Below are positions 15,249 to 55,733 of a stretch of DNA of 64,000 nt, one piece after another. Position numbers and translations under genes: made by a program. The DNA lies in IMG/VR virus record IMGVR_UViG_3300014913_001094, positions 1-64,000 of that record; one strand, given 5' to 3'. The number at the start of each line of letters is the position of its first letter. Position 1 is the stretch's first letter. The notes beneath the pieces were generated by a model. The model was not told the origin of the DNA, made no database searches, and saw only the letters and a list, made by a program, of their open reading frames with translations. The stretch is from a virus.

Positions 15249-17024
15249 ATGGCAGATAAAACAGGAAATTCTGGCGGAGGCGATGATCTCAGCAGACGTG
15301 GACAACAGCACAGCGGACCTGCTAAACCCGCCGTTCCTTTGCCTCCACATATTCAAGCAGAAGTGCAACGTCGTGAAGCGGCAAAGAATGTGAAGGCAAC
15401 GGCAATGACAAAGACAGCAGGATCTGGTATGGCTTCTCCTGGTGTTGCTGTTGTGCGTAATATTCCTAAAGTATATAGTCCTCTCTATGAGATGACTAAC
15501 TTAATGCTTCCCCGCGACCAGAAGACATTAAACGCGTGGAATCGTCACTTCTTCTCAACCAATCCTATTGTACGTAATGCCGTCACTTTACATGCCACCT
15601 ATCCTATTAGTAAGTTTAATATCACCTGCGAAGATCCAGATATAAAAGATTTCTTTGAAGAGATGTTTCGAACGATAAATTTTAGAGGTTTTCTTTTAGG
15701 TATTTCTTTAGAATACTGGAAGTTAGGAGAGTGCTTCCCCTATCTTGAGCTTGATGAAGAAAATGGAATTTGGGATTATGGATTTGTTCATAATCCAGAC
15801 TTTATTAGAGTTCGCTACTCGTCGTTAGCCAGAGATCCTGTATTTGGACTTGTACCTGATGATTCATTAAGAAAAGTTGTTCAGGGAATGAGTCAGGGTG
15901 ATGCGCAACTTCGACAACAATTACCCGCAGAGGTTGTAAATTATGTACAAAAAGGACAGGACATTCCTCTTCCTAATTTTAACATATCACACCTCAAAAT
16001 GTTGGCGTCAGACTATGATCAGCGTGGTACATCGTTAATTACGTCGGTTTATAAAGATTTAATGTTATACGATAAGATTCGAGAAGCTCAATTTGCACAA
16101 GCAGATGATATGATTAACCCTATGACTCTTGTTAAGTTAGGGGATCCACAAGGTGCTTGGAAACCAAATGATGAAGACATTAGAGCATTCCAGGATATAA
16201 TTGAAGAAAGTCAGTATGATCCAGATTTCAAATTGATAACCCATGGTGCTGTTAATATTGAACGAGTTGGTTATAGTGGAACAACACTCGATGTAGGTCA
16301 AATGTGGGAAGCAATCAATAAGAATTTATATACAGGGCTTCTCGCTCCCGAAGCAATCCTCAACGGTGAAGGTCCCAATTACAGTACAGCTGCAATTGGT
16401 CTCGAAGTACTACGTGTACGTTATGATCGTTTCCGCGAGCAACTATCAGAATGGATTGAAAAGAAAGTCATGGAGCCAATTTGTAAGCTTCAAGATTTCT
16501 ATGTTCGAGAAAAGGGCGCGCAAAGACTAGTTTGTCCAAAGGTGATTTGGAATAAGCTAAATCTGCGAGACATTGATGGTTATACAAGTAATCTTGTAGG
16601 ACTTCTTGCAACACCAGAAGCTCCAGGTAAAGTATCAGATCAAGCTTTGTTTGAAATTCTTGACATAGATTATGAAGAAAATCGAAAGGTTCTACGTAAA
16701 GAAGCAATTGATTCTGCAATCTTCATAAAAGAATCACAAGCACTTGGTAAGATGTCTCTCGAAGAGTTACGTGCTCTTGATTCAGATAAGCCAATCGTCG
16801 ATTTACATAAAGATGAAGAGCTTCCTACTTCAGATGAAATAGGAGGTGATGAAGAAGGTGGACCTGGTGGACTTGAGATGCCAGATCTAGGCGGAATAGG
16901 TGGTGGAAGCGAGGGTGGCTTTGGCGAAGAGGGGATTGCTCCTGAAGGTGGAGATCTCGGTGGATTAGGTGGAGAAGGCGCACCGCCAGCACCACCAGCA
17001 GGCGAAGGTACCGAAATTGGTTAA
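15249..17024 (+). CDS. Portal protein
   Basis: The 591-residue protein matches the portal family in length and order: a disordered N-terminus (1-65), the clip/stem alpha-beta core beginning around V-Y-S-P-L-Y-E-M, then I-R-E-A-Q-F-A-Q-A-D-D and L-L-A-P-E-A-I-L-N-G-E-G-P-N-Y-S-T-A. A long helix follows (R-Y-D-R-F-R-E-Q-L), and a Gly/Glu-rich tail from about 530. Portals form the dodecameric ring at one vertex through which terminase packages DNA and to which the tail connects. An M-T-K-T-A-G-S-G segment near residue 54 fits the K-x-A pattern noted as a possible processing site. Confidence 0.9.
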   Translation: MADKTGNSGGGDDLSRRGQQHSGPAKPAVPLPPHIQAEVQRREAAKNVKATAMTKTAGSGMASPGVAVVRNIPKVYSPLYEMTNLMLPRDQKTLNAWNRHFFSTNPIVRNAVTLHATYPISKFNITCEDPDIKDFFEEMFRTINFRGFLLGISLEYWKLGECFPYLELDEENGIWDYGFVHNPDFIRVRYSSLARDPVFGLVPDDSLRKVVQGMSQGDAQLRQQLPAEVVNYVQKGQDIPLPNFNISHLKMLASDYDQRGTSLITSVYKDLMLYDKIREAQFAQADDMINPMTLVKLGDPQGAWKPNDEDIRAFQDIIEESQYDPDFKLITHGAVNIERVGYSGTTLDVGQMWEAINKNLYTGLLAPEAILNGEGPNYSTAAIGLEVLRVRYDRFREQLSEWIEKKVMEPICKLQDFYVREKGAQRLVCPKVIWNKLNLRDIDGYTSNLVGLLATPEAPGKVSDQALFEILDIDYEENRKVLRKEAIDSAIFIKESQALGKMSLEELRALDSDKPIVDLHKDEELPTSDEIGGDEEGGPGGLEMPDLGGIGGGSEGGFGEEGIAPEGGDLGGLGGEGAPPAPPAGEGTEIG

Positions 17025-25694: not shown

Positions 25695-26591
25695 ATGGCA
25701 TTATCAGATAATCTAATTGCATACTGGAAGATGGAAGAGACAGGAACAACCACAACTCGTGCCGATTCTGTAGGCTCAGCTGATGCCTCATCCTTTACTG
25801 GAACGGTTGCTGCTGGTCCCTCAACAGGTAAATTGAACAATGGAATGTTTACCAACAATAGTGGATTTCCCTGGGTTCCCAATGGAAGCCTTGGTAGCAT
25901 TACTTCTGATAATTTCTCAGTTGCAGGTTGGTTCAGACATGATAGCTTCAATAGTCTCCCACCAAATGGAACTGGTCCCTTAGCTCTTGGAGGATATAAT
26001 AAAACAGATGGCTGGGGGATATGGTCTGACGGCTCTGCAAATAACTATAATCTTCGAGCAAGACTCCGCAGCAGTGGAGCATCGGTAGTGACAATCTCTT
26101 CTGGAGCTAATCCATGGACAGAGGGTGTTTATAACCATATAGCACTCACTCGTACTCAAAATGGTGCAATGGATCTCTGGTTAAATGGTGTATCTATTGC
26201 AAATACGGCAAATTCAGGGTCAACAAATTTTTCGGCAACAACTGAAGGACTAAAGCTTGGCAGCGGTAGTACTGCATATGGAGATTGGTACATTGACGAA
26301 GTAGGCTACTGGAACACGGGACTATCCTCAGATGATGTTAGTCTTCTCTACAACAGTGGAGCTGGTAACTTTTATGATAATGATAATCCTAATGAATTTG
26401 ACGAAGAAAGTCCACCTCCAATCTGCTGGAACTACACTGCACAGTACAAAAGTTCCACCAAAATGTTTAAACTATCAGGTCCTGGATCTTTCCCAAAAAG
26501 AATCAATATTCCAGGCAACGTAGATATTTCAACTGGCAAAATGATTGATGATGGTCGAGAGATTGATCCTTCAAATTATGAAGTCGAATAA
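25695..26591 (+). CDS. LamG/concanavalin-like domain protein, 298 aa
   Basis: Residues about 1-230 match the LamG/ConA-like jelly-roll. It begins L-I-A-Y-W-K-M-E-E, with F-S-V-A-G-W-F, Y-N-H-I-A-L-T-R, L-W-L-N-G-V and Y-I-D-E-V-G-Y-W-N at the expected spacing. Such domains bind glycans and are common on phage exteriors. The last 58 residues, starting P-P-I-C-W-N-Y-T-A-Q-Y-K, are almost identical to the end of the protein at 40905, so they may be a shared anchor for attachment to the virion. A head or tail surface glycan-binding role is likely. Confidence 0.82.
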   Translation: MALSDNLIAYWKMEETGTTTTRADSVGSADASSFTGTVAAGPSTGKLNNGMFTNNSGFPWVPNGSLGSITSDNFSVAGWFRHDSFNSLPPNGTGPLALGGYNKTDGWGIWSDGSANNYNLRARLRSSGASVVTISSGANPWTEGVYNHIALTRTQNGAMDLWLNGVSIANTANSGSTNFSATTEGLKLGSGSTAYGDWYIDEVGYWNTGLSSDDVSLLYNSGAGNFYDNDNPNEFDEESPPPICWNYTAQYKSSTKMFKLSGPGSFPKRINIPGNVDISTGKMIDDGREIDPSNYEVE

Positions 26592-31309: not shown

Positions 31310-31498
31310 ATGAATATGGAAGCTGAAGCAGAGAGTTTGAAGATTCAAATTATGGAACTTCAGCGTATGGAATTTGATATTCAAGAAGACATTGAAAAAC
31401 TTTATCAAGACCTCGAGAGAGTACGCAAAGAGCGTACTCTCAAAGAGACTCAGCTTCGTTTAATAGAAGATAAGCAACTTGGTAGGACTGAAGAGTAG
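31310..31498 (+). CDS. Small coiled-coil protein, 62 aa
   Basis: A TAGGAGATCAA Shine-Dalgarno precedes the ATG. Almost the whole product is one charged amphipathic helix with regular heptads, typical of a coiled-coil dimer or trimer. No function can be assigned. Confidence 0.65.
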   Translation: MNMEAEAESLKIQIMELQRMEFDIQEDIEKLYQDLERVRKERTLKETQLRLIEDKQLGRTEE

Positions 31499-31508
31499 AA
31501 AGAAAGAA

Positions 31509-32543
31509 ATGTTTGAGAATATTCCCACAGGCTATTTTTATGAAGACCTTTTATTGAGACCTTGTGGTAGTGAAGTCATGTCTCGTATGGATGTTAATAT
31601 GTCAACAGAATTGTTGCCAGGAATAGTTCTCAAGGCTCCAATTATTTCTTCGCCAATGTCTTCAATAACTGAATCAAAGATGGCTATTAAAATGCATGAA
31701 GTCGGTGGATTGGGCATTCTTCATCGCTTTGCAAGCCTTACTCACCTTGAGCAAGAAATGAAAATAATAGGCAAAGAAGTCCCGAAGTCTCATCGTGCTT
31801 TTGCTGTTGGAATTAAAGAAGCCGATACTGCTCTTCTTAGACTCTTAACTCCTCATGCAGATATTATTTGTGTTGATGTTAATGTAGGTCACCATGTTAA
31901 AACGATAGAAATGATCAAATATATTCGTCATGCATATCCTGATCATCAAGTAATTGCTGGAAGTGTCTCAACAGCAGAAGGTACAACAGACTTATGTAAA
32001 GCAGGAGCTCACTGCATTAGAGCGACCAATGGGGGCGGCAGTATGTGTACCACTTTAATTGAAACTGGCGTTGGTGTTCCAACTGCTACTTCGCTTGCTG
32101 AATGTGTTCAAGCTGCTGATCAATATGGAGTAACAGTTATTGCAGATGGTGGCATTACAGGCTCAGGTACCATTGTTAAAGCTCTTGCAATAGGAGCAGA
32201 TGCTGCAATGACTGGTTCATTGTTATCAGGTTCTTCTGCAATTCCAACTGAAGCATTTTTTCTTGATGAAGATGGTAATTATAAAGCTCATTATTATGGA
32301 ATGGCATCGAGAGAGGCGCAGTTGCGCCGTGGCGATGAAGTTAGAGAAGGTACAGCTCCAGAAGGAATTAGTCGAAGTGTGCCAGTACGAGGAAAAACAA
32401 GTGTCATACTTGAGAGATTGATTAATGGGATTAGATCAGGTATGTCGCAGGTAAATGCAAAAGATCTGTCAGCTCTAAGAGCTAATGCACAATGGGTAAA
32501 AGTAAATAAGTGGCCAAATTCGTTTTCAGGAAAAATGAAATAA
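31509..32543 (+). CDS. IMP dehydrogenase / GMP reductase family enzyme
   Basis: The start is taken at ATG 31509; an in-frame TTG at 31479 would overlap the previous gene. The 344-residue TIM barrel has S-S-P-M (48-51), I-C-V-D-V-N-V-G (120-127) and N-G-G-G-S-M-C-T-T with the catalytic C180. I-A-D-G-G-I (211-216) and Y-Y-G-M-A-S-R-E-A follow. The absence of CBS domains and the length favour GMP reductase (GMP to IMP with NADPH) over IMP dehydrogenase. The Arg that usually follows C-T-T is Leu here and the usual G-P-G-S is G-G-G-S, so specificity is uncertain. It would alter guanine nucleotide pools in the infected cell. Confidence 0.82.
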   Translation: MFENIPTGYFYEDLLLRPCGSEVMSRMDVNMSTELLPGIVLKAPIISSPMSSITESKMAIKMHEVGGLGILHRFASLTHLEQEMKIIGKEVPKSHRAFAVGIKEADTALLRLLTPHADIICVDVNVGHHVKTIEMIKYIRHAYPDHQVIAGSVSTAEGTTDLCKAGAHCIRATNGGGSMCTTLIETGVGVPTATSLAECVQAADQYGVTVIADGGITGSGTIVKALAIGADAAMTGSLLSGSSAIPTEAFFLDEDGNYKAHYYGMASREAQLRRGDEVREGTAPEGISRSVPVRGKTSVILERLINGIRSGMSQVNAKDLSALRANAQWVKVNKWPNSFSGKMK

Positions 32544-35941: not shown

Positions 35942-37954
35942 ATGAAGATCTTTGACATGCTTGTTCATGAAGGACATCAATATGAACTCTGCAAATTGGG
36001 TTGTGACTTCACAGTTATGACGGATGAGAGTACAGGTAAGGTTTGGGATACAAAAATGCGTCCTGTACCATCTAATGTCACTTTTGTTGATAAAGTGGGA
36101 CTATCTATAAAGACTATTGAGTCACATGATCTTGCAATTATTCGCAATTATAGACAATTTAAATTGTTGGAAAATTGTCGCTTACCAAAAATAATTGTGA
36201 TGCATTGTTCAAGACATGGTCAAGGTAATGTAGAATTTGTACAAGAAGATCTTTCTAATTATACAATAGTATTTTGTTCTCACAAGGATAAAGAAAGATG
36301 GAACCTTGCTTCTGGTAGACAGCATGTTATTTATCCTGGATTAGATCCAAATGAATGGCCAATTAGTCAAAGAACAACAAACAGAGTGTTTACAGTAGGG
36401 AGAATGATAAAAGAGCGGAGTAAGATTTGTGGTTTCAAGATTGTTGAAGAGTTCCAAAGGAGTAGGATACCAGTTAGTGTAGTTGGAGACAATCCTGCAA
36501 TACAAGTTCAAGCTCCTGGTAGTTTTGAAGCATTTAAAAGAAATCATGAAAGATATGCAGTCTATTTGAATCCAACTCTAAGGTCACCACAACCTCGTGG
36601 CCGAGTTGAAGCAATGATGTCAGGAATCCCTATTGTAACAACAGCGTTTTATGATGAGTCATCTTTTATTGAGAACGGCATCAATGGTTTTTTCTCAAAT
36701 AATGCTCAACAGTTAAAAGAATATGCTGTTTTACTGTTAAATGATCGAACCTTACAAGAGTCAATGGCAACTAAAAGTAGACAAACAGCAGTAGAGCATT
36801 TTCACATTGATAGATTTCTTGGACAATGGAGAGAAATTATTGAAGAGATGGTTGGAAGTGCAAATATTCCTATCATCAAAGCACGACCAACGAATATATC
36901 TATGACAAGAAAAGATAGTAGTGGTGGTGGAGGAACAGTAACATCAAACAATGTAGTTGAAGGACTAAAGAAAAGCGGATACAATGTAAGCTGCTTAGAT
37001 ATTAACAGCAAAGGATGGGTTTCTTTTGTAAATGATATTAAGCTCCCAGCTACTGGCGATAGAATATTCGAGAATTATATTAGACAAAATCCATGCGATG
37101 TTTTGATTTTTGATGATGTAGCTCGATATATATTATGTAAAGACTCCATCGATCCTCATTGTCGAGTGTTTTTATGTCTTCTTGGTAATCCTCAAGTTCA
37201 CTCAGAACATTGGGCAAGTTCAGGAGTAAATCTCAATGACCCAGATAATCGTATAGAAAGAATTTTATGTAGACCTGTATATGCTAAATTTCTAAAAGTT
37301 CAATTTGGAGATGAAAGGGTGATAAGCTGGGTTGGTGGATGTGATGGAGAAGCGTTGCGTAGAGAATATGGCTCCGCTCAATATAGAAGTCCACAAGATG
37401 GAGCACTAGTTATATCAGCTCATAGAGGTACAGATTGGTGGAAAAACCCAACAACTTCATTCCTAGCAGCTTATGGGTTATCCAAGACACATCCTGGGTT
37501 AATATATTTTAAGCCTAGCGGAAATGAGATGGAAAAGCAATTTCTTAAGCATTCGCCATTTGATATTCAATATGGTGGAACACGTAGAGAAGGAATGGAA
37601 AGAGAAAAGCTTTTAAGAACAATGGCTTGTGCTCAATTAGCAATTGAACCTGGATATTCAGAAGGGTTTTCGAGATCTTGTAATGAGATGATGAACTTTG
37701 GTATACCAGTAATTCAAGGACCGAATGCACAGCATTTGAGACAAAACGAGCTTCTCAGTAAATACTTATTGCTTAATGATGGAAGTGATATTCAAGAATT
37801 GGTTGAAAAGTCATCAGCTCTTTTGGAAGATAAAGAGCTGTGGGAACAGGTTAGTGCAGAATGTATTGAGTTTTCTGCACAATATGATATACAACAAGAA
37901 GTAGCAACTTTACTTGAGGCTTTAGGAGATGAAGATCATGAAGCTGGCTGCTAA
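35942..37954 (+). CDS. Tandem GT-B glycosyltransferase fusion, 670 aa
   Basis: Two GT-B type (GT4-like) modules appear in one chain. Module 1 (about 1-305) has V-F-T-V-G-R-M near 140 and the donor-binding P-R-G-R-V-E-A-M-M-S-G-I-P-I-V segment. Module 2 (about 315-665) has an N-terminal half starting after S-G-G-G-G-T-V-T-S, A-H-R-G-T-D-W-W-K, and the donor loop E-G-F-S-R-S-C-N-E-M-M-N-F-G-I-P-V-I. Each would transfer a sugar from a nucleotide donor. It overlaps the sugar-isomerase-like gene by 17 bases. Expected to build a short glycan together with its neighbours. Confidence 0.8.
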   Translation: MKIFDMLVHEGHQYELCKLGCDFTVMTDESTGKVWDTKMRPVPSNVTFVDKVGLSIKTIESHDLAIIRNYRQFKLLENCRLPKIIVMHCSRHGQGNVEFVQEDLSNYTIVFCSHKDKERWNLASGRQHVIYPGLDPNEWPISQRTTNRVFTVGRMIKERSKICGFKIVEEFQRSRIPVSVVGDNPAIQVQAPGSFEAFKRNHERYAVYLNPTLRSPQPRGRVEAMMSGIPIVTTAFYDESSFIENGINGFFSNNAQQLKEYAVLLLNDRTLQESMATKSRQTAVEHFHIDRFLGQWREIIEEMVGSANIPIIKARPTNISMTRKDSSGGGGTVTSNNVVEGLKKSGYNVSCLDINSKGWVSFVNDIKLPATGDRIFENYIRQNPCDVLIFDDVARYILCKDSIDPHCRVFLCLLGNPQVHSEHWASSGVNLNDPDNRIERILCRPVYAKFLKVQFGDERVISWVGGCDGEALRREYGSAQYRSPQDGALVISAHRGTDWWKNPTTSFLAAYGLSKTHPGLIYFKPSGNEMEKQFLKHSPFDIQYGGTRREGMEREKLLRTMACAQLAIEPGYSEGFSRSCNEMMNFGIPVIQGPNAQHLRQNELLSKYLLLNDGSDIQELVEKSSALLEDKELWEQVSAECIEFSAQYDIQQEVATLLEALGDEDHEAGC

Positions 37955-38696
37955 GACAGAGCCCAATAAAGAAAAGATGCAAACAATATGGGATGCTGGA
38001 TTTCGGTATCTTGAAATTTATACAACTGTTCAAAATATCAATAAGGATAGTGAGGACTTACTTAATTCATTTGAATTTGAATATGCTATACATGCTCCTA
38101 TCTATTCTTTTGATGAGAGTGTAATTGATTTTGCTCATCATGTTGGAGCACGAATTATAAATACACATAAGATTCTTAATCCTGATAGATTTAGAGAATT
38201 AGTACAATACGCTAGAGGAAAAAATATAACAATAACAATAGAAAATGATTCACTTCCTTCAGCTCATCAAATTAAAGATGGACAGTTGATAGTGATGCCA
38301 CCAGAGCCCTTTCATGCAGCTTCAGATGGAGAGAGAATAGTACGAGACATATTAGGAGTAAAGTTGTGCTTAGATATTGAGCACGCTTGGTTAAGAGGAG
38401 AATATAGTCAGATTCTTACAGCACACGCTTCACATCACATTAGACATGTTCATTTAACGGGCTACATATCATCCAATTCAAAAGGATTTCATAGGCCTGT
38501 ATATGAGAGTGACTTTTTAGTAGAGAATACAATTCATTACCTAGCACGAGAAAGCTACGAAGGTTTTGTAGTATGTGAGCACAATGTGCAGTATCATACA
38601 TTTGAAATATGGAAGAGATCTTTTGATTTTTGTAACGACATTATAGTAGAGAAAGAAATGCTAAATAGGACCAAATTAGCTAGGAGAACCAAATGA
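37938..38696 (+). CDS. Xylose-isomerase-like TIM barrel (sugar isomerase/epimerase family)
   Basis: ATG 37938 is preferred because AGGAG lies nine bases upstream; ATG 37929 is too close to it. The 252-residue barrel has acidic and His metal-ligand segments typical of the AP-endonuclease-2/xylose-isomerase superfamily: Y-A-I-H-A-P near 45, I-E-N-D near 107, C-L-D-I-E-H near 146, R-H-V-H-L-T-G and C-E-H-N. The family includes sugar isomerases, epimerases and endonuclease IV. Between glycosyltransferases, a sugar-nucleotide or sugar-phosphate role is more likely. Confidence 0.75.
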   Translation: MKLAAKTEPNKEKMQTIWDAGFRYLEIYTTVQNINKDSEDLLNSFEFEYAIHAPIYSFDESVIDFAHHVGARIINTHKILNPDRFRELVQYARGKNITITIENDSLPSAHQIKDGQLIVMPPEPFHAASDGERIVRDILGVKLCLDIEHAWLRGEYSQILTAHASHHIRHVHLTGYISSNSKGFHRPVYESDFLVENTIHYLARESYEGFVVCEHNVQYHTFEIWKRSFDFCNDIIVEKEMLNRTKLARRTK

Positions 38697-40642
38697 ATTT
38701 TCGCCTAAAAACAAGTACAAACATTCAACAAGCTATTGGAAGAAGAATGTATCCAGATCCACATATGGCTATTGTTGAGCTTGTAAGTAATTCTTATGAC
38801 GCTGATGCCGATAAGGTACATGTTATTGTAACAGCAGATAAGATTATTGTCCACGACGATGGTTGGGGCATGACAGAAGATAATCTAGCCGGATTCTTTA
38901 CGATTGGTAAAAGTTCGAAAGCCCCTTCAGAAAAGGGCAGAGAGCCAATTGGAACATTCGGAATTGGTAAATTTGCTATTCTTAGTATGGCAGAGCAGTT
39001 CTTAGTATTCTCAAAGTCTGAAACTGGTCCCTACAGAAGCTGTGCATTTTATTCACACGAAGCAGCAATAGCAGCAGGTGATTTAATCGACGACTATGAG
39101 ATTGAAGTAAGTACATATTTAACAGAAGAAGAGTATGAAACTGCTCTTGTTGCAGAGATTGGTACAGAGCTGTATGATGTAAATAAAACTGGCGTTTGCA
39201 TTATTATGAAGAATCTTCATAGACAATATTCTGATATGGCTATTCGAGAGAGGCTTTCTGAAATGCTTGTTCCCCAAGCAGAGAGCGAGTTCAGTGTATT
39301 TGTTAATGATGAGCTGCTTGAAGAAAAGTATGTTCATGGTCTTCGTTACGATATTGATCTTACCACTGAATTTGGTCCAATCACAGGCGAGATTGTCATA
39401 GCAGCAGAGAGCATTGATCTTGCAGATCAGGCTGGTGTTCAAATTCAAGTACAGAGTAGAGGAGTATATAGAACCTATTTTGGACTTGAAGGTTATGATA
39501 AGTCGGCAGGTCGTCTTTCAGGATATGTGGTTGCCAATTGGCTTAAGGATGTGATCTCTTCTAATAGAACAGATTTGATTGCCTCTCCAGAAAAAACAGC
39601 ATTTGAAGCTGCTGTTACAGAAGCTATTCGTTCCATCCTCGACGTTGAAGCTCAGAAGAGAGCAGCAGAAGACGAAGAACGAAAAGCAGAAGTTCTTAAT
39701 AGAGCTGTTAGAACAGTAACAAATATTTTAAACAAGCTTCCAGAGTTTGATTTTCCACAGAGACCTATGCAGTCAATGATTCCTGTAGGGATTCTCGAAG
39801 ATGTTCTCGCCGGTAAAGATCCAGCAGGAGAAATAAATGAAGATGGAAGTATGGAAGCAACAGTATCTGCTGCTTCAGGTGCTTTTAAGGAATTGTTAAA
39901 ATATCTAAGAGAAATAGCACCACAATTCAATGTTGATCCTTCTGATGTTCCTACTGAAGTTCGTACCATCTCTGAATTGCTCGATGTAGTTGAGAAGGTA
40001 CTTGGAGTATCGCTGGTTGAACTAATTGGAAAAGAAGCTCTTGAGCAATTAATTAGTGCAGCTATCCCAGAAGCAGAAATGGAAGATGAAGAAAGAATTA
40101 GAGGTGCATTTAGATTAGTTAGTCAAAGAATTGAGCAGCTAATAAGAGAAATTACAGCACAAGAAGATATGCCAACAGAATGTGCCCAACCAGCAGAAGG
40201 TGTTTCTTTACGTACTCCTATTACCAATTCGTTGGAGCTAGGTAAGATTAATCTTACTCCTATTGCTCCTCCACTTGACTTTTCTTCTTTAGATCTCAAT
40301 ATTAATCCTCAAGAAGACGGATATGTTCCAGATGCACCACAAGCACAAATAAACAACTTTGTTGCTGCTAGTGTTGAGCATCTTGGAGAAGATGGTCCCG
40401 CAAGCATGGTAGCTGAGGGAGCAGGTTTCGACGGTATTCAAATTTACATTAATGCAGATCATCCAGTATATCAAGGTATCAAAGAGGATTCCCCAAGTAT
40501 GCTTGCTTTTTATCAAGCACAGTTAATTTTTGGTGAGGTTATTTTAATGCAGAACTTTACACCAAGAGAGGCAATGGATAAACAAGCAGAACTCATGAGA
40601 TTACTTGTCAATACTGACAGAAAGATTCTTAAATTTAAATAA
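38693..40642 (+). CDS. GHKL (Hsp90/MutL/MORC-like) ATPase, 649 aa
   Basis: Overlaps the previous stop by ATGA. The N-terminal ATPase has the N box E-L-V-S-N-S-Y-D-A (E29, N33), D-D-G-W-G-M (55-60) and G-T-F-G-I-G-K (87-93), with I-G-K-S-S-K (71-76) as in MORC/MutL-like proteins rather than kinases. A transducer-like domain follows (about 190-300, with N-R-T-D), then helical segments. The C-terminal domain carries I-N-A-D-H-P-V-Y-Q, a feature of stand-alone Hsp90-like ATPases. No dimerisation-histidine domain is present. GHKL clamps remodel proteins or DNA; its role among fibre genes is unknown. A chaperone for virion assembly or a counter-defence factor are both possible. Confidence 0.8.
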   Translation: MNFRLKTSTNIQQAIGRRMYPDPHMAIVELVSNSYDADADKVHVIVTADKIIVHDDGWGMTEDNLAGFFTIGKSSKAPSEKGREPIGTFGIGKFAILSMAEQFLVFSKSETGPYRSCAFYSHEAAIAAGDLIDDYEIEVSTYLTEEEYETALVAEIGTELYDVNKTGVCIIMKNLHRQYSDMAIRERLSEMLVPQAESEFSVFVNDELLEEKYVHGLRYDIDLTTEFGPITGEIVIAAESIDLADQAGVQIQVQSRGVYRTYFGLEGYDKSAGRLSGYVVANWLKDVISSNRTDLIASPEKTAFEAAVTEAIRSILDVEAQKRAAEDEERKAEVLNRAVRTVTNILNKLPEFDFPQRPMQSMIPVGILEDVLAGKDPAGEINEDGSMEATVSAASGAFKELLKYLREIAPQFNVDPSDVPTEVRTISELLDVVEKVLGVSLVELIGKEALEQLISAAIPEAEMEDEERIRGAFRLVSQRIEQLIREITAQEDMPTECAQPAEGVSLRTPITNSLELGKINLTPIAPPLDFSSLDLNINPQEDGYVPDAPQAQINNFVAASVEHLGEDGPASMVAEGAGFDGIQIYINADHPVYQGIKEDSPSMLAFYQAQLIFGEVILMQNFTPREAMDKQAELMRLLVNTDRKILKFK

Positions 40643-40904: not shown

Positions 40905-41789
40905 ATGGCATTAGAAACTAATTTAGTATCATATTGGAAAATGGATGAAACATCTGGAACAAGATCTGACTCAAAAGGGTCAAATGATCTTACAGCAAGT
41001 GGCGTTGACTACGACACAGGTCAGTTCAATAATGCAGCAGATTTTAATGACCTTTCAGATTATTTAACAATAGCCGATGGTAGTCAAAGTGGTCTTGACG
41101 GTTCTCTTGACTTTTCATTCTCTCTTTGGGTAAATTGGCGAGGTGTGAGTTCAAGTGGAGATAATCAGTTTATAGCTAAACACTCTAGCCCCTTCCATTC
41201 TACTAGTCCAAATTACGACCTTGCGGCCCGTCTAACTTCAGGTCGTCTGATACTCTCTTCCACCATGACTGGAGGGAGTACTGCTTCTCTTACTGGTGGC
41301 TTTTGGACATTTTCCACAGATACATGGCATCACATTGTTGTGACAAGAGCAAATTCTGGTAATTTGACTTTGTATCTTAATAATGTTTTATATTTTCAGA
41401 CTGCTTCAGGTGGAGGAACAAGTCACGACAGCGACCGGCCATTCTATATTGGCAACCGTTACAACCCTACTCCAAGTGAAGGTGCTGATGCGCTAATTGA
41501 TGAAGTTGGTTTCTGGAGTCGCGAATTGACGACTGATGAAGTTGAAGAGCTACATAACTCTGGTAGTGGTCTCCAATTTGATAATGAAAAGCCTGGCGAA
41601 TTTGACGATATTCCTCCAATTTGTTGGAACTACACAGCACAATACAAAGGCTCTACCAAAATGTTCAAAATGTCTGGTCCTGGCGACTTCCCAAAAAGAA
41701 TCAGTATCCCAGGTAATATAGATACATCAACCGGTAAAATGATTGATGATGGTCAAGAAATTGACCCTTCAAATTACGAAGTAGAGTGA
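40905..41789 (+). CDS. LamG/concanavalin-like domain protein, second copy
   Basis: 294 residues: a LamG jelly-roll (Y-W-K-M-D-E, F-S-F-S-L-W-V-N-W, H-H-I-V-V-T-R, L-Y-L-N-N-V, L-I-D-E-V-G-F-W-S) followed by the same C-terminal module as the protein at 25695, beginning P-P-I-C-W-N-Y-T-A-Q-Y-K. The lectin part has diverged much more than the tail, as expected if the tail anchors to a conserved virion part and the lectin part varies with its ligand. Likely a surface glycan-binding protein. Confidence 0.82.
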   Translation: MALETNLVSYWKMDETSGTRSDSKGSNDLTASGVDYDTGQFNNAADFNDLSDYLTIADGSQSGLDGSLDFSFSLWVNWRGVSSSGDNQFIAKHSSPFHSTSPNYDLAARLTSGRLILSSTMTGGSTASLTGGFWTFSTDTWHHIVVTRANSGNLTLYLNNVLYFQTASGGGTSHDSDRPFYIGNRYNPTPSEGADALIDEVGFWSRELTTDEVEELHNSGSGLQFDNEKPGEFDDIPPICWNYTAQYKGSTKMFKMSGPGDFPKRISIPGNIDTSTGKMIDDGQEIDPSNYEVE

Positions 41790-41805
41790 GTAAAAAGGAA
41801 AGAAA

Positions 41806-43257
41806 ATGAAAGTAGTAACTCGATTTGCACCCACAATTAGTGGAGACCTACATATTGGTGGTTTGTATAATGCTCTTGTAAATTATTTGTTTGCTAAAAG
41901 GTATGATGGTGATTTTAAGCTTCGACTCGATGGAATATTTACCAACGATGACAGGCTACAATGGCAAAAGAGTCTTGAAGAGGATCTAATAACCTTTGGT
42001 TTAATTCCAGACGAGGTTCTTAGGTGCTCTGATAGACTTGAATATTACAAGACAACAGCAACAAGCATGCTTTTGGATCACCCAAGATCATACTACTGCG
42101 ACTGTACAGTGCAAGATTTATTGAAGCGTGCTGATAAAAGTGATGTAGGATTTTATCATTTATATCGTCCAGAAAAGTATCCGCCATATTGTAAGATAGC
42201 GCAAATCAAGTTATTTGGTTTAGAAAATGACAACAATATTGCAGTAGGATGTGGAGTTAAATCAGGCACTACATCGCAGAATAGTTCTATTGAATGTCTA
42301 ACAGGACATACTGCAAATAAGAATAAGTATTGGGAGCCAGTAGATTCAGGTTATGCATTTCATCCAATGAAGCCTGAAGTGACTATTCACTTCAAAGAGG
42401 CAACAGATGTGAGTGGAATCGAAATTGTATGGCGAGATAGACCAATTCAAGAATACAAAGTAGAAGTGTGTACAGAAGGTAAAGGGAGTCAGGAAGTTGT
42501 TCACTGCAGTAAACCAGGAAGGCATTTTGTAGACCATAAACCAGGCCAACCTTATCCTACTTTAACAAGTGATAAGCAAAGCTTTGCTGCAGTTAAGGGT
42601 ACATATGTGAGGATAACTTTTATTGGATGTCCTCGACCTGTAGATCGACCATATTTTTATGATTATCATTGTCGTGATCTTGGTAAGTCTTTAGATCTTA
42701 CCGAGCGCGATGCAACAATGAGAATGAAAAATAAAGATTGGTATGAGGGTGGCTACAGTGGTCCAGTAGACTTTTTGACTCAAGAGTCAACCATTCAGCC
42801 CGAAGATCTTAATGTTGATACCTGTTGGTGGTTTGGACGAGCACCAGATTTAGTTTTTACAAGCCCGCTTGACGATCATGACCTTGGAGTTACACATTTG
42901 CTGAGAGGTGAAGATATTCAACCTTTTAGTGTGATAGAGTCACAAATTGCAGAAGCAATGGGAATGTTGGTAAAACCCCAGCTCTACCATGGAATGATAA
43001 TAGATACAAGCGGATATAAGTACAGTAAGTTTGTTGAGAGTACACCAGTGAGACAACATTTAAAAGACGGAATAACCGCTGATATGATCTTAACCTATCT
43101 TGCACACAGAACAGGATTAGTTGAAAGTCTTGATAAGATTATGACGCCCAAACAGCTGGTACAGTGCTTTGAGGCAAGTAGTATTTTGACTCAAAATATT
43201 GTGATTGATGAAGAAATCATGATTGAAGTGATCAAAGAGAGATTTATAAGGAGCTAA
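41806..43257 (+). CDS. GluRS/GlnRS-like class I synthetase core with discoidin-like insertion
   Basis: The 483-residue protein starts R-F-A-P-T-I-S-G-D-L-H-I-G-G (6-19), the HIGH motif of glutamyl/glutaminyl-tRNA synthetases. It also has Y-Y-C-D-C (96-100, as in the zinc region), V-T-H-L-L-R-G-E-D (362-370), L-Y-H-G-M-I and K-Y-S-K-F (405-409, the KMSKS loop). Residues about 137-285 are an inserted domain with an F5/8C (discoidin) pattern: K-Y-W-E-P, V-T-I-H-F-K-E, I-E-I-V-W-R, Y-V-R-I-T-F. The usual E-D-T-D substrate motif is replaced (L-D-G-I-F-T-N-D-D-R) and the anticodon-binding domain is missing or very short. Adenylation chemistry is likely kept; the acceptor is unknown and probably not ordinary tRNA-Glu. 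It sits between a LamG gene and a fibre gene. Confidence 0.82.
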   Translation: MKVVTRFAPTISGDLHIGGLYNALVNYLFAKRYDGDFKLRLDGIFTNDDRLQWQKSLEEDLITFGLIPDEVLRCSDRLEYYKTTATSMLLDHPRSYYCDCTVQDLLKRADKSDVGFYHLYRPEKYPPYCKIAQIKLFGLENDNNIAVGCGVKSGTTSQNSSIECLTGHTANKNKYWEPVDSGYAFHPMKPEVTIHFKEATDVSGIEIVWRDRPIQEYKVEVCTEGKGSQEVVHCSKPGRHFVDHKPGQPYPTLTSDKQSFAAVKGTYVRITFIGCPRPVDRPYFYDYHCRDLGKSLDLTERDATMRMKNKDWYEGGYSGPVDFLTQESTIQPEDLNVDTCWWFGRAPDLVFTSPLDDHDLGVTHLLRGEDIQPFSVIESQIAEAMGMLVKPQLYHGMIIDTSGYKYSKFVESTPVRQHLKDGITADMILTYLAHRTGLVESLDKIMTPKQLVQCFEASSILTQNIVIDEEIMIEVIKERFIRS

Positions 43258-43260
43258 AAA

Positions 43261-44901
43261 ATGGCCAGTACACCTACCGATAATTTCGGTTATGACAAGC
43301 CAGCAGCTGGTGACAGAGGCTGGGGTACAACAATGAATACCAATCTTACCAATCTCGATGTTCATCTTGCAGCTGAACATCGCAGTAGTTCAGGTAATGA
43401 AGGTAAGCATGGTCCCAATCTTACAATTCTTAATTCAAACTCAACTCCAGCTCTTGATATCACTCAGAGTGCAGGATCTGCAGTAGCAGTTAATATTACT
43501 AATTCGACAACAACTGCGGGTGATATGCTTTCCATTAATTGCAACTCGAGCACTGGCAGCGCCGTATCAGTCACCTCAACTCATACTAATAATTATGTCA
43601 CTTTGATTGATATTGATGACAGCTCTACAAATTCCGGTGGCTGCACTTTTAGTGTAAAGAGTGCAAGGAAAGTCGGTGCTGGGGGTGCTAAGTTTGAGAA
43701 CACATCTACTCACTCAAACAGTTCTTCATTGGCAGTATCAAAGGCTGCAGGAACAAGTGGTAGGGTTCTCAAGGTCACCAACGATGGTAATGGTATAGGA
43801 ATAGATATAAATCATTCTAGCGATGGTGTTATTATAGATATTGATTGCACAAACGCTGGTTCTGGTATTATGACCATCAATCAATCAGGAGCAAGTGGTG
43901 GTGCAGGCATCACAATGACAACAATATGTAATCAGGAGGCTCTAGGAATAACTGCAAATGGTACTCACAGTAATGCTCACGGCATTGAGCTCACCAATAG
44001 TGGTGGTGGCAAGGTCTTGTGGCTCAAACAGTATGCATCTGGCATTGGAATAGATTTAGATTACAATCACACCACTAGTGGCAATGCAGCAATTGATATT
44101 GATACATCAAACCCTGCCAATGTTATTGATATTAACAAAACTCATACAGGTAGTGGAAGTCCGATCAGTATCAACAACTCTGGTACAGGTGTTGGTATTT
44201 ATGCACAACAAGTTGGTACAGGATATGGTCTACAAATTAGAAAGACAGCAACCTCTGGAACGACAGCACTTCTTGAATGTACCTCTACGGCTAATACGAG
44301 CACTCTCTTGTCAATAAGTCACAGTGGTACTGGGAATGCAATAACAGTCAGTCCTTTGAGCTCAGGTAAAGGTATTTTTGTCAACAAGACGACAGTAGCC
44401 GCTGGAGCTTGTATTGATATTATGAACTCTGGAACTGGTCATAGTATTAATATTACACAAAATGGTGATCAAATACCAATAAGAGTTTCAATGGCAAGTG
44501 GCAACACTTATGCTGCCATTTACGTTACAAATTCTGGTTCTGGACATCACTTTGATACTGATGCTGGTTCAGGTACCGCAGCTCATTTAACAAATGGTGG
44601 TGTTTGGACTGATGCGTCTTGCTTTAGAGAGTTTAAAGAAGAGATTGAAGAACTAGATGCTGAGGCACTAACTGACGTATTAGATAGGGTTAGTGAGATG
44701 CCAGTTGCTCGTTATTATGATAAGGCAGATAAGGCTAAAGTACGTCGTCGTCGTTTTGGTCCATTCCAAGATGAATTGGTTGATCGGTTTGGTCTTGATC
44801 CTCGTGGAGTCAGTCCAGTAGAAGTAGCCACAATTGCACTTGCTGCAGTTAAAGCTCTTAAAGCCGAGATGAATGATCTTAAAAAGCAGTTAGGTCAATA
44901 A
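43261..44901 (+). CDS. Fibre protein with beta-helix-like repeats and S74-type chaperone
   Basis: The 546-residue protein has repeating N-S-G-T-G-x-x-I-x-I units over about 60-440, which suggest a trimeric beta-helix or beta-prism shaft. The end (about 450-546) matches the S74 intramolecular chaperone: C-F-R-E-F-K-E-E-I-E-E-L, then V-A-R-Y-Y-D and a final helix A-V-K-A-L-K-A-E-M-N-D-L-K. In S74 domains a Ser-Lys dyad (S-D-R-R-L-K) cuts the chaperone off. Here the aligned nucleophile is C454 with K459, though S453 is adjacent. Likely a tail fibre or spike. Confidence 0.8.
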   Translation: MASTPTDNFGYDKPAAGDRGWGTTMNTNLTNLDVHLAAEHRSSSGNEGKHGPNLTILNSNSTPALDITQSAGSAVAVNITNSTTTAGDMLSINCNSSTGSAVSVTSTHTNNYVTLIDIDDSSTNSGGCTFSVKSARKVGAGGAKFENTSTHSNSSSLAVSKAAGTSGRVLKVTNDGNGIGIDINHSSDGVIIDIDCTNAGSGIMTINQSGASGGAGITMTTICNQEALGITANGTHSNAHGIELTNSGGGKVLWLKQYASGIGIDLDYNHTTSGNAAIDIDTSNPANVIDINKTHTGSGSPISINNSGTGVGIYAQQVGTGYGLQIRKTATSGTTALLECTSTANTSTLLSISHSGTGNAITVSPLSSGKGIFVNKTTVAAGACIDIMNSGTGHSINITQNGDQIPIRVSMASGNTYAAIYVTNSGSGHHFDTDAGSGTAAHLTNGGVWTDASCFREFKEEIEELDAEALTDVLDRVSEMPVARYYDKADKAKVRRRRFGPFQDELVDRFGLDPRGVSPVEVATIALAAVKALKAEMNDLKKQLGQ

Positions 44902-51848: not shown

Positions 51849-54800
51849 ATGACTACTGTCAGCATATGTATGATTGTTAAGAATGAGGAAGAGGTCCTTG
51901 CACGATGCCTCAAATCTCTCGGTAATTTTCCTGATCAATTAGTTATAGTAGACACAGGTTCAATAGATAGAACAATTGAAATTGCAAAGGAATTTGGAGC
52001 TGAAATTCATCACTTCGAATGGATACGAGACTTTGCCAAAGCGCGTAACTATTCCTTTAGTAAGGCAACTTGCGACTATGTTTTCTGGCTTGATGGCGAC
52101 GATGAAATTGCACCAGAAGAGCTTGAAAAGCTAATGACTCTCAAATCTAATCTCACCAAAGATATGTATCTAATGGTTTATGATTACTTCCAAGATGCAG
52201 ACGGTAATCCTAAATGTGATCTTTGGAGAGAGCGCCTTGTAAAACGAGAGTTGGGATTGAAGTGGCGCTATCCAATTCACGAATGTATCCCTATGGATCA
52301 GCGTCCTCTTGAAACAGAGCAAGTTCCAATTCGAATTACACACAAACGAACAGAGGCTGGATTTGCTAGCGACCTCAGCCGTAATATAGATATTCTTGAA
52401 AATGCTGTAAGAGGCGATTATGCCGACGATCCTCGTGTTAGATATTATTTAGCTAAAGAGATTCATGACAATAGAGATTTTGAAAGAGCATCAAGAGAGT
52501 ACACAAAGTTTCTTAATATGAATGCCGGCTGGTATGAAGATAAATTATATGCACAATTTAAATTAGCTCAGTGTTATTATGAAATGGGCTGCGACAAACA
52601 AAGGCAAGTAGAGAAATTTGAAAAGCAAGCAAGAGAAGCAAAGAATAGTAAGAAGCGAGAACAAGCAACAAGAGCAGCTAATCGCCGCAAGAAGCAGGTA
52701 AGTATACAGCATGATAATGCAAGAAAAGCCGCAAAGCAAGCGATTAAAAGCGATTCTCAATTTGCAGAGCCATACTATGTTCTTGGTCAACTTGCAATGG
52801 ATGAGCAAGATCATGATGAAGCCATCTACTGGTTTGAAAAAGCGTTTAGACCATTTCCTAATGTTCTAAGTCCTATTCGAAGAGACTTTTATACATGGAT
52901 GCCAGCTCTTCAGTTATGTGTATGTCACAGTAACCGTGGTGACTATGAACAAGCAAGCTATTACAATGAACAAGCTGCCAAGGAAAATCCACAACATTCT
53001 TCTATTATTCATAATACGAAATATTTTGCTGAGAAGCTTGAAGAAAAAACGCAAAGAAAAACTCCAGAAGGAGATATTTCTGTTAAGTTGAATCTTGGTA
53101 GTGGAAATAAAAGATACAAAGATTACACGAGTTGTGATCTGTTTCCAGGAGCAGAAGTAGATGAAGTATTTCCCCTAAATGATATTCCATATGAAGACCA
53201 AACCGTAGATGCAATTCATAGTGAACATTCTCTTGAGCATCTTCGTCATGTCGACGCAAGGTCAGCCATACAAGAATGGGCACGAGTTTTGAAGCCAGGT
53301 GGAGAGTTGCATCTTCAGATTCCAGACCTTGAAGAGTGTTGTAGAAAATATATAGAGGCAGTACAAAACGGAGATCGAAGACTACAACAATGGTATATGT
53401 ATACAATATTCGGTATACAAAAATCACAAGCCGACGAGCCGGATGAAGGTCAAATTCATTATACAGGATTTAATTTGGCTGAGATTTTAGACTTACTTAA
53501 AGATGCTGACTTCATAATAGATTATTATGGAAAATACGATGGACATAGTACGCCGTCTCTTGAGATAAGAGCTGTTAAAGCAATCGGTTCAATCAGAATA
53601 GGATGGTTGGGTCAAACATGTCTTGAAAGTCCACAGTATAGAATTCGAACACACCATATAGATAGATGGCTTCGCAGCAGAGGATATCGTACAGAGATCT
53701 CCCAAAAAGATCAAAAGTATGACACTGTGATTGCTGATAACGGTACACCATATAGGACAATACAACAATACAAGAAAGAGGGTTCAAGAGTAATTCTCAA
53801 TTTATGTGAAGACTATGACACAATGCTTTCTAAAGAAGAGATGAAAGTAGAACAAAGAAGATATGAGGTTGTAGATCTTATAGTATGTTGCTCTCATGCC
53901 CTAGCTGAGAAGTTGAAAAAATATAATACTGTTGTAATAGAAGACGCAGTTGAAGTCGATTTTAATTTAAACTGCACTTATGAAAACAAAGAACAATTGA
54001 CAGTTGGTTGGATCGGTATGGGTGGTAATGTCGTTCATGCAGAAAGACTGCGTCCACTAATTGAAGAGCTAGGATATAAGCTTGTCACAATTCATGAACA
54101 CGATAATGCAGATGTAAAGTGGGATTTGAACACTTGGCAACAAGAGTTAGCAAAATGTGATATGGCAATAGCTCCAATTGATCATCATAAGCAACCCAGC
54201 AAATCAAATAATAAACTGACAACATATATGGCTCTTGGTCTTCCTACTGTCGTCAGTCCACTAGATGCATATAAACACGTTGTTGATAATGGTCCTTCTA
54301 ATTATCCATTTTACATTGCATATAATGATGAAGGATGGAAACATTGTTTGGCTTGTCTAGGAAATGTTGAGCATCGAAGAGAAATGGGATTTGACGCAAA
54401 AGAAAAAGCAAAAGAATATAGCCTTGATGCAATAGGTCAGAAATGGGTAGATGTCTTAATTGAAACTGACTGGATGAGCGATGAAGATTGGGATAAGTTA
54501 TCTGTATCATCACTCGAAAGATTATATGAAGACGAAGATAGAGCAGAACAACTTGTTGATATAATTATTCCTACATATGGTAAAGATGATTATCTTCAAG
54601 CATGTATCAATAGCATTAAGACATGTACAACTGACTATCCATATAATATTATAGTTGTTGATAGCCTAAAGCTGGGACTGAATTTTTCTCAAGCAGTAAA
54701 TCATGGAATTAGACAATCAACAGCATCGCATGTATGTATTATGAATGACGATGTAATAGTATCAAAAGGATGGTTAAAGCCATTGCTTGAAGAGTTAAAA

Positions 54801-55733
54801 GATGATGTTGGTTTTGCGAACCCATTGAGTAATTGCGACAAGGGATGGTTACATAATTATGATCTTAAAGCAGGTGAAGTAAATCTGCTTCCTGGCGTTC
54901 ATAAGCTAGGCGAGGTTGATCCATATGCAATTTATGATTTTAAATCTCCTTCTACAAAAAGATATAAACGAGATTGGCTTCCTTTATACTGCACTTTAGC
55001 AACAAAAGAAGCTATTGAAAAAATAGGATATCTCGATGAAGAGTTTGAAACAGGAAGTGAAGATTTAGATTATTGTAAGAGAGCAGAAAAGCTTGGAATA
55101 AAATGTGCAGTAGCAGAAGATTCGTTTGTGTTTCATTTTGGAGGAGTGAGTCGCAAAGCACATGAAATGGAAGATCGTAGTGTTCATCAAGAAGAAGACA
55201 CAAAGAATCAGAACAGAATTGGATTTAAATACAATCGTCCGCTCGTTGTAATCCAGTCAGGATTAGCCTATGAGGACTGGGATGCGAATACGTTAAGAGA
55301 AAAGGGTTGTGGTGGTAGTGAACTAGCTGCTTGTATGATGGCAGAAAATTTTGCTAAGCAGGGATACAGAGCGGTAGTATTTGCTCAAACAGGAAAACCG
55401 AAGCAGGTAATTAATCAAGTAGAGTGGTACGATCAAAGTGAGTGGTTGAATTTCATCGACATGAATCATATTAGTATCTGCGTTGTTTCGCGCTATGCAA
55501 ACTATCTTGAAGATTCAATAAGAGCAGATCAGCTATGGCTCTGGACGCATGATATTTTTGCGATGTGTAGTAAGGTTGGAGATGTCGACTTAGTTCAAAA
55601 GAATTACGATAAGCTGACAGGAATTTTTGTATTATCCAAATGGCATGCCTGCTTTATGGCTGATTACCATGGGATATCAACAGAAAAGACATGGGTTACA
55701 GGAAATGGTATAAATTTGAAGGGAAGTGAATAA
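51849..55733 (+). CDS. Poly-enzyme: GT2, TPR, methyltransferase, GT-B, GT2, GT4 N-half
   Basis: The 1294-residue protein holds, in order: a GT2 domain (about 1-240; V-D-T-G-S-I-D-R-T and L-D-G-D-D-E at 81-86) and helical TPR-like repeats (about 190-390). A SAM methyltransferase follows (about 408-560; L-N-L-G-S-G-N, L-E-H-L-R-H, L-K-P-G-G-E-L-H-L), then a GT-B-like module (about 565-850; G-W-I-G-M-G-G-N). A second GT2 (about 900-1090; I-I-I-P-T-Y-G, M-N-D-D-V) and the N-terminal Rossmann half of a GT4 enzyme (about 1130-1294; G-C-G-G-S-E-L-A-A) complete it. The GT4 half ends at the inter-domain linker N-G-I-N-L-K and its other half is the next gene, starting in TAATG. Likely assembles a methylated glycan on a phage or host target. 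Confidence 0.82.
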   Translation: MTTVSICMIVKNEEEVLARCLKSLGNFPDQLVIVDTGSIDRTIEIAKEFGAEIHHFEWIRDFAKARNYSFSKATCDYVFWLDGDDEIAPEELEKLMTLKSNLTKDMYLMVYDYFQDADGNPKCDLWRERLVKRELGLKWRYPIHECIPMDQRPLETEQVPIRITHKRTEAGFASDLSRNIDILENAVRGDYADDPRVRYYLAKEIHDNRDFERASREYTKFLNMNAGWYEDKLYAQFKLAQCYYEMGCDKQRQVEKFEKQAREAKNSKKREQATRAANRRKKQVSIQHDNARKAAKQAIKSDSQFAEPYYVLGQLAMDEQDHDEAIYWFEKAFRPFPNVLSPIRRDFYTWMPALQLCVCHSNRGDYEQASYYNEQAAKENPQHSSIIHNTKYFAEKLEEKTQRKTPEGDISVKLNLGSGNKRYKDYTSCDLFPGAEVDEVFPLNDIPYEDQTVDAIHSEHSLEHLRHVDARSAIQEWARVLKPGGELHLQIPDLEECCRKYIEAVQNGDRRLQQWYMYTIFGIQKSQADEPDEGQIHYTGFNLAEILDLLKDADFIIDYYGKYDGHSTPSLEIRAVKAIGSIRIGWLGQTCLESPQYRIRTHHIDRWLRSRGYRTEISQKDQKYDTVIADNGTPYRTIQQYKKEGSRVILNLCEDYDTMLSKEEMKVEQRRYEVVDLIVCCSHALAEKLKKYNTVVIEDAVEVDFNLNCTYENKEQLTVGWIGMGGNVVHAERLRPLIEELGYKLVTIHEHDNADVKWDLNTWQQELAKCDMAIAPIDHHKQPSKSNNKLTTYMALGLPTVVSPLDAYKHVVDNGPSNYPFYIAYNDEGWKHCLACLGNVEHRREMGFDAKEKAKEYSLDAIGQKWVDVLIETDWMSDEDWDKLSVSSLERLYEDEDRAEQLVDIIIPTYGKDDYLQACINSIKTCTTDYPYNIIVVDSLKLGLNFSQAVNHGIRQSTASHVCIMNDDVIVSKGWLKPLLEELKDDVGFANPLSNCDKGWLHNYDLKAGEVNLLPGVHKLGEVDPYAIYDFKSPSTKRYKRDWLPLYCTLATKEAIEKIGYLDEEFETGSEDLDYCKRAEKLGIKCAVAEDSFVFHFGGVSRKAHEMEDRSVHQEEDTKNQNRIGFKYNRPLVVIQSGLAYEDWDANTLREKGCGGSELAACMMAENFAKQGYRAVVFAQTGKPKQVINQVEWYDQSEWLNFIDMNHISICVVSRYANYLEDSIRADQLWLWTHDIFAMCSKVGDVDLVQKNYDKLTGIFVLSKWHACFMADYHGISTEKTWVTGNGINLKGSE

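Follow-up and report, generated by a model that had tools for sequence, protein, structure and literature searches.

A divergent phage-encoded glutamyl-tRNA synthetase-like protein with an F5/8 type C-like insert

Introduction

In a review of the field, GluQRS is the sole paralogue of glutamyl-tRNA synthetase (GluRS) with a new function, and it still acts on tRNA; together with MshC, it provides a precedent for a synthetase paralogue turning to a different acceptor (PMC9437257). An earlier sequence-only reading of the DNA discussed here had invoked GluQRS as such a precedent, and the literature bears this out. In the GluQRS crystal structure, glutamate is contacted by Arg9, the Ala11 carbonyl, the Ser13 hydroxyl, the Glu45 carboxylate, Tyr172, and Arg190; Arg51 lies in a loop directly above this site, and Cys101, Cys103, His118, and Cys119 are the zinc ligands (PMC12736043). 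In GluRS, the histidine corresponding to H16 of our protein contacts ATP (PMC5919687), and in a docking model of the E. coli enzyme, Glu44 and the 3'-OH of A76 are both close to the amino group of an adenylate analogue (PMC4393105).

The phage protein described here shares with bacterial GluRS (GltX, TIGR00464) a class Ic core, HIGH- and KMSKS-type motifs, both glutamate-binding arginines, and stem-contact-like helices. Unlike GltX, it has no anticodon domain, carries a 180-residue insert in the acceptor region, and shows replacements in EDTD and SPT as well as at Y349 and R409. With GluQRS (YadB, TIGR03838) it has in common that it is a paralogue without anticodon domain, and also, judging by the alignment, chemically similar groups at five of the six glutamate contacts, Y21, and a G-F-Y after the C-x-C strand. 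GluQRS, on the other hand, has no such insert and largely misses the stem-contact region, whereas its zinc ligands His118 and Cys119 have no counterpart in the phage protein. The insert resembles F5/8 type C/CBM32-like discoidin domains (PF00754) in its sequence profile over residues 171–273, but unlike other such domains it is embedded in a synthetase core. Finally, the GluRS of IMG/VR viruses are phage-encoded class Ic proteins too, some of them compact (255–295 aa) and likewise devoid of an anticodon domain; at 60 such loci, however, no insert of this kind is found, and the complete proteins keep canonical motifs.

The gene, its neighbors, and its phage

The window, i.e., the whole stretch of 64,000 nucleotides that was analyzed, belongs to a 91,453-base IMG/VR record (IMGVR_UViG_3300014913_001094). 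Its portal protein shares 35% identity with the one of Bacillus phage G, so the record derives from a tailed phage; it is probably an incomplete genome, a fragment. On the plus strand, an open reading frame at 41806–43257 encodes a single protein of 483 residues, as judged from the list of reading frames, the translation, and the profile and Foldseek matches. A good Shine-Dalgarno-like site (AAGGAAAG, 41795–41802, plus strand), read from the sequence, lies 4–11 bases 5' of the ATG.

The gene is flanked on the same strand by a LamG/concanavalin-A-like protein (40905–41789; E 1.7e-21) ending 16 bases upstream and, 3 bases downstream, by a repetitive, fibre-like protein of 546 residues (43261–44901), whose S74 chaperone match (E 0.0056) stays below the cut-off. 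The location agrees with the one noticed earlier, between a LamG lectin and a tail fibre, insofar as the downstream protein is fibre-like. The fibre neighborhood alone says little, because genes for unrelated enzymes also sit among the virion genes: at 35942–40642, a glycosyltransferase, a TIM-barrel protein, and a HATPase are encoded. In G+C content and codon usage, both core parts and the insert resemble other genes of the same phage, and the insertion therefore does not look recent.

Concerning the LamG neighbor, the window encodes a second such protein (25695–26591). The two are paralogues with divergent lectin domains, yet their last ~60 residues (CWNYTAQYK...DPSNYEVE) are nearly identical, and this common C-terminal end looks like an attachment tail.

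No tRNA genes were found in the 91 kb of the record. Glycosyltransferases are encoded at 35942, 51849, and 55733. A long run of further ones begins at ~71.6 kb of the record and continues almost to its end. In this last stretch (record ~71.6–91 kb), the glycosyltransferases run together with methyltransferases, hexapeptide acyltransferases, and one DegT/DnrJ sugar aminotransferase, a glycan-building gene set that is unusually large for a phage. Collagen-like fibres are encoded as well.

A class Ic synthetase core

The sequence-only reading had recognized a class I Glx-tRNA synthetase core, and the matches to such cores are far stronger than chance would give. Pfam tRNA-synt_1c matches in two stretches (E 2.8e-30), and the NCBIfam models gltX_bact (E 2.2e-30) and GluQRS (E 7e-26) match too, both far under their equivalog cut-offs: 106 bits against the 289.95 of TIGR00464 (bacterial GluRS) and 88–91 bits against the 256–277 of the GluQRS models. 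The first half of the core (residues 1–123; 41806–42174, plus strand) holds the PF00749 match at 2–107, and the second half (residues 304–483; 42715–43254, plus strand) holds phrog_35649 at 347–469. When residues 125–300 are omitted from the search, gltX_bact covers both halves in one single stretch. Sequence matches in the PDB comprise dozens of Glx-tRNA synthetase chains (best E 5.6e-19).

An AlphaFold2 prediction that used 21 viral homologues points in the same direction. Its block means of pLDDT are 73–98 over most of residues 1–100 (the same range holds for 1–90, in the first half of the core) and 70–97 over 340–483. Foldseek against the PDB ranks GluRS 6b1p first (E 4.2e-17), and the top list consists exclusively of GluRS, GluQRS, and GlnRS; E. 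coli GluQRS (4a91) appears at rank 34 with a TM-score of 0.70 by target length. The whole-chain rmsd of these matches is large, as expected with a poorly modelled middle of the chain. The predicted fold is that of GluRS, with a Rossmann HUP core, and not that of an unrelated nucleotidyltransferase. Having HIGH- and KMSKS-type motifs on such a core, the protein belongs with the class I aminoacyl-tRNA synthetases, and profiles and model together confirm a class Ic Glu-tRNA-synthetase core. By curated cut-offs, however, it falls outside both GluRS and GluQRS; if active, it would work as a GluRS-type adenylate-forming enzyme.

Catalytic motifs and the glutamate pocket

We compared the core with 97 homologues, namely 65 cellular GluRS, 9 GluQRS, and 23 viral GluRS. 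The four motifs noticed at the outset are all present and in the same order (all on the plus strand): the HIGH-type H16-I-G-G19 (41851–41862), in which H16 and G18 are kept; C98-D-C100 (42097–42105), the first half of the zinc hairpin; R367-G-E-D370 (42904–42915), whose R367 is the counterpart of the glutamate-binding Arg190 of GluQRS; and the KMSKS-like K405-Y-S-K-F409 (43018–43032), where F replaces the invariant R409. The substrate motif EDTD had been described as rewritten. This applies to the EDTDxxR block D42-G-I-F-T-N-D48 (41929–41949, plus strand) insofar as D43, T44, D45, and also R48 are replaced, but an acidic residue is still found at its first position, D42, where compact viral GluRS have aspartate as well (RIDDTD).

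Conservation is selective. Relative to the homologues, R6, A8, P9, G13, H16, G18, A23, G35, R40, D356, D357, R367, G368, and K408 are kept, as is S407 of the KMSKS-like motif, whereas nine positions that never or hardly vary elsewhere have been replaced (S10 to T, P11 to I, T12 to S, D43 to G, D45 to F, R48 to D, Q74 to C, Y349 to L, and R409 to F). Among the near-invariant columns, 14 of 24 are kept, versus a consensus identity of 28% elsewhere (binomial p 0.0015, a guide only, as the aligned rows are related to each other). Two of the losses counted in these 24 columns (P and H near 391/395) reflect an alignment offset, P391 and H395 being in register.

By the alignment, the counterparts of the glutamate contacts in GluQRS are R6, A8, T10, D42, L349, and R367. 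Five of the six groups are chemically kept, including both arginines that receive the side-chain carboxylate of glutamate (R6 and R367), and the exception is Tyr172, which corresponds to L349. The R48 position aligns with Arg51 of GluQRS. Judging from the cited papers and the alignment, several of the lost residues (D43, D45, R48, and Y349) would surround the mouth of the pocket. At position 21, the protein carries the tyrosine typical of GluQRS, where GluRS has arginine.

The insert and the tRNA-binding regions

Residues ~124–303 (42175–42714, plus strand), about 180 in number, have no counterpart in any aligned homologue. Within them, residues 171–273 (42316–42624, plus strand) match the F5/8 type C (discoidin) profile PF00754 above its curated cut-off of 28.2 bits, both in the whole protein (28.8 bits, E 1.5e-6) and with the insert alone (31.6 bits, E 2e-7), and a second F5/8C family, PF22633, matches the insert with E 1.9e-4. 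The earlier assignment to F5/8C therefore stands at the level of sequence profile, but the insert is longer than the ~150 residues first proposed. Its fold is another matter. Modelled by itself, the insert is beta-rich with a pLDDT of 53, and structural matches are weak: the best is DDR1, a discoidin-domain protein (E 0.029, prob 0.47, not significant), with neuropilin-2 and a Bacteroides F5/8C domain further among them. The structure search thus left the jelly roll unconfirmed, and because the model is beta-rich but weak, we accept the assignment by sequence and leave the fold aside. No other gene of the same phage was found from which the insert could have been duplicated.

In the alignment, the insert is placed after the C98-x-C100 strand and before the strand with R306. 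GluRS has, between its two Rossmann halves, an insertion that binds the tRNA acceptor end, and the position of the insert therefore puts it in this acceptor-end-binding part. Accordingly, it does interrupt the core, as claimed before, but between both halves and not within one of them: as far as the alignment goes, it replaces the second half of the zinc hairpin while neither Rossmann half is split. Of the GluQRS zinc-ligand set, only the cysteines have equivalents (C98 and C100); counterparts of His118 and Cys119 are unrecognizable, both by eye and in the alignment.

At the other end of the chain, residues 412–483 align with viral and cellular GluRS in the stem-contact domain, and this helical region (43039–43254, plus strand) is predicted with block pLDDT values of 91–97 over residues 411–480. 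Afterward the protein ends, and ordinary homologues extend 100–200 residues further. The anticodon domain is hence absent, in line with the first reading.

Relatives

Single-protein scans of IMG/VR viral contigs and of bacterial genome contigs revealed no relative carrying the insert. A tblastn search of phages and plasmids yielded partial matches only. These were GluRS/GluQRS of ordinary appearance, none had the insert, and many seem to belong to bacterial contigs that had been filed as phage. Viral contigs contained no match to a DNA pattern for the altered A-P-T-x-S-G motif with L-H-x-G-G after it, and sister phages sharing the locus, sought via the LamG and fibre proteins, were not found. 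The genomes of one phylum (294 Planctomycetota, threshold 1e-18) yielded no relative either, in a search that had no positive control and for a phylum chosen without a known host. Among 21 portal-related records, many of which are fragments, none matched tRNA-synt_1c, whereas 14 of 14 control genomes did. The singular status of the protein holds within the collections searched, which may omit records near the window's own.

Viral GluRS as such are not rare. Two alignment-based scans of viral contigs gave 38 and 22 loci, a few from the same contigs, and the proteins extracted from these 60 lack an insert of this kind. In the complete ones, the SPTG, (E/D)DTD-type, and KxSKR motifs remain canonical, apart from a rare single change. 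When 98 cores were placed in a tree, the end branch of our protein was 4.7 changes per column long, the median being 0.31. We considered whether it could be a GluQRS and rejected this: its scores are far below the cut-offs, and it falls outside GluQRS in the tree, where the long branch makes the placement unsure. An anti-phage defence role was likewise dropped, PADLOC having given no match. Searches of open-licence papers found none that combines phage, GluRS, and discoidin or carbohydrate binding, which agrees with the earlier impression of an undescribed type of enzyme.

In the same tree, several very short viral GluRS (about 255–285 aa; L017, L023, L030, L031, L032, L036, and L043) form a clade with good support. 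These lack the zinc hairpin, most of the acceptor-binding region, and the anticodon domain, and their catalytic motifs are canonical.

Possible functions

We tentatively lean, with less than even confidence, toward a repurposed, glutamate-activating GluRS paralogue that has been retargeted to a nonstandard acceptor, perhaps a glycan. The core would still bind ATP together with glutamate, or with a similar acidic amino acid, and form the aminoacyl-adenylate, a step for which GluRS itself needs tRNA. The F5/8C module would stand in for the part that guides the tRNA acceptor end and, the anticodon domain having been dropped, the insert would supply a different acceptor to which the activated amino acid is passed. 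Most likely, this would be a glycan, or a product glycosylated by the phage's own large glycosyltransferase set; a fibre protein appears less likely. In favor of this reading are the GluRS fold, the five of six glutamate contacts, the ATP motifs, the 14 of 24 near-invariant columns, the losses at D43, D45, R48, and Y349, the insert at the acceptor-end site, the lack of tRNA genes in the record, the many glycosyltransferases, the DegT aminotransferase, and the precedents of GluQRS and MshC; the gene content would fit an acceptor related to glycans but is no proof of one. F5/8C domains also bind protein or lipid, and glycan binding by the insert is therefore an assumption. Catalysis, the identity of the amino acid, and the acceptor are inferred. 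Against this reading, the loss of Y349, of R409 in KMSKS, and of the SPT triplet, all among the nine replaced residues, could abolish catalysis. Its more specific form, in which a glycan or the phage's own fibre receives the activated amino acid, probably glutamate, and a carbohydrate-binding module has taken the place of the acceptor-end clamp, we consider unlikely. If true, however, it would turn an aminoacyl-tRNA synthetase into an aminoacyl-glycan (or fibre) ligase: with its glutamate and ATP contacts kept and a lectin-like module placed at the acceptor site, such a GluRS core would illustrate how synthetases can be redirected to a new class of acceptors, and amino-acid decoration of glycans or fibres would suggest itself as a phage strategy.

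The lost residues also lie at the heart of the main rival, in which the core is catalytically dead and merely scaffolds the F5/8C domain as a binding protein, perhaps on the virion or host surface, made from a late fibre operon. The very long branch, the disappearance of Y349, R409, D43, D45, R48, and the SPT triplet, and the tight packing of the gene between the LamG and fibre-like genes (16 and 3 bases) all speak for it, and pseudo-synthetases are known, SLIMP having arisen from SerRS by ablation of the active site (PMC10570016). Yet the selective keeping of both glutamate arginines, D42, H16, G18, S407, and K408 is unexpected for a mere scaffold, and LamG and collagen fibres already supply binding modules without an enzyme fold, so that we regard a dead paralogue as somewhat unlikely. 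Next comes an enzyme that glutamylates tRNA, be it a host tRNA or a modified base as in GluQRS, via an altered acceptor site and with the insert as an accessory RNA- or protein-binding domain. The well-predicted stem-contact-like helices, the remaining C-x-C half of the zinc hairpin, the GluQRS-typical Y21, and the compact GluRS encoded by many viral contigs would suit such activity, but the zinc partners, anticodon domain, and pocket-mouth residues are gone, the record is devoid of tRNA genes, and the NCBIfam cut-offs for GluRS and GluQRS are missed by far; we find it distinctly unlikely.

If the gene were a decaying synthetase gene that had once been captured, or a chimera with no function at present, this would explain a singleton that has lost many invariant residues and that has no equivalent in portal-related phages. 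Such a reading is nonetheless very improbable, as the frame of 483 codons has stayed open despite extreme divergence; this, together with the good ribosome-binding site, the tight packing between neighbors, and the phage-like codon usage of core and insert, points to a long-resident, maintained protein. To the idea that, whatever the core does, the insert is another beta-rich or partly disordered segment rather than a discoidin domain, we assign the smallest probability of all: the low pLDDT and the insignificant structural matches speak for it, but both F5/8C families match by sequence (PF00754 above its curated cut-off), and the structural matches, weak as they are, include DDR1, neuropilin-2, and the Bacteroides domain, all of discoidin type.

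Other genes of the phage

Several further genes deserve mention in their own right. At 51849–55733, the window encodes a protein of 1294 residues that unites GT2, TPR, methyltransferase, and GT4-like domains. Amid the genes of the virion region, 31479–32543 encodes an IMP dehydrogenase/GMP reductase domain (Pfam E 4.6e-82). The HATPase at 38693–40642 is MORC/Hsp90-like and weakly similar to the RIIA lysis inhibitor, to PADLOC TmtA, and to type II restriction models. Between the terminase and portal genes, the product of 13537–14598 starts with a nucleotide-binding-like N-terminus and weakly matches the C-domain of glyceraldehyde-3-phosphate dehydrogenase (E 5.4e-5, just under the cut-off). Finally, in related phages (L052, L053, and L055), an intein-like segment (CYDEETETLT ... 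VPPNHLFVTRRNG) seems to split the portal gene at the conserved GEGPNY/S site, where the portal gene of the window (15249–17024) runs on uninterrupted.
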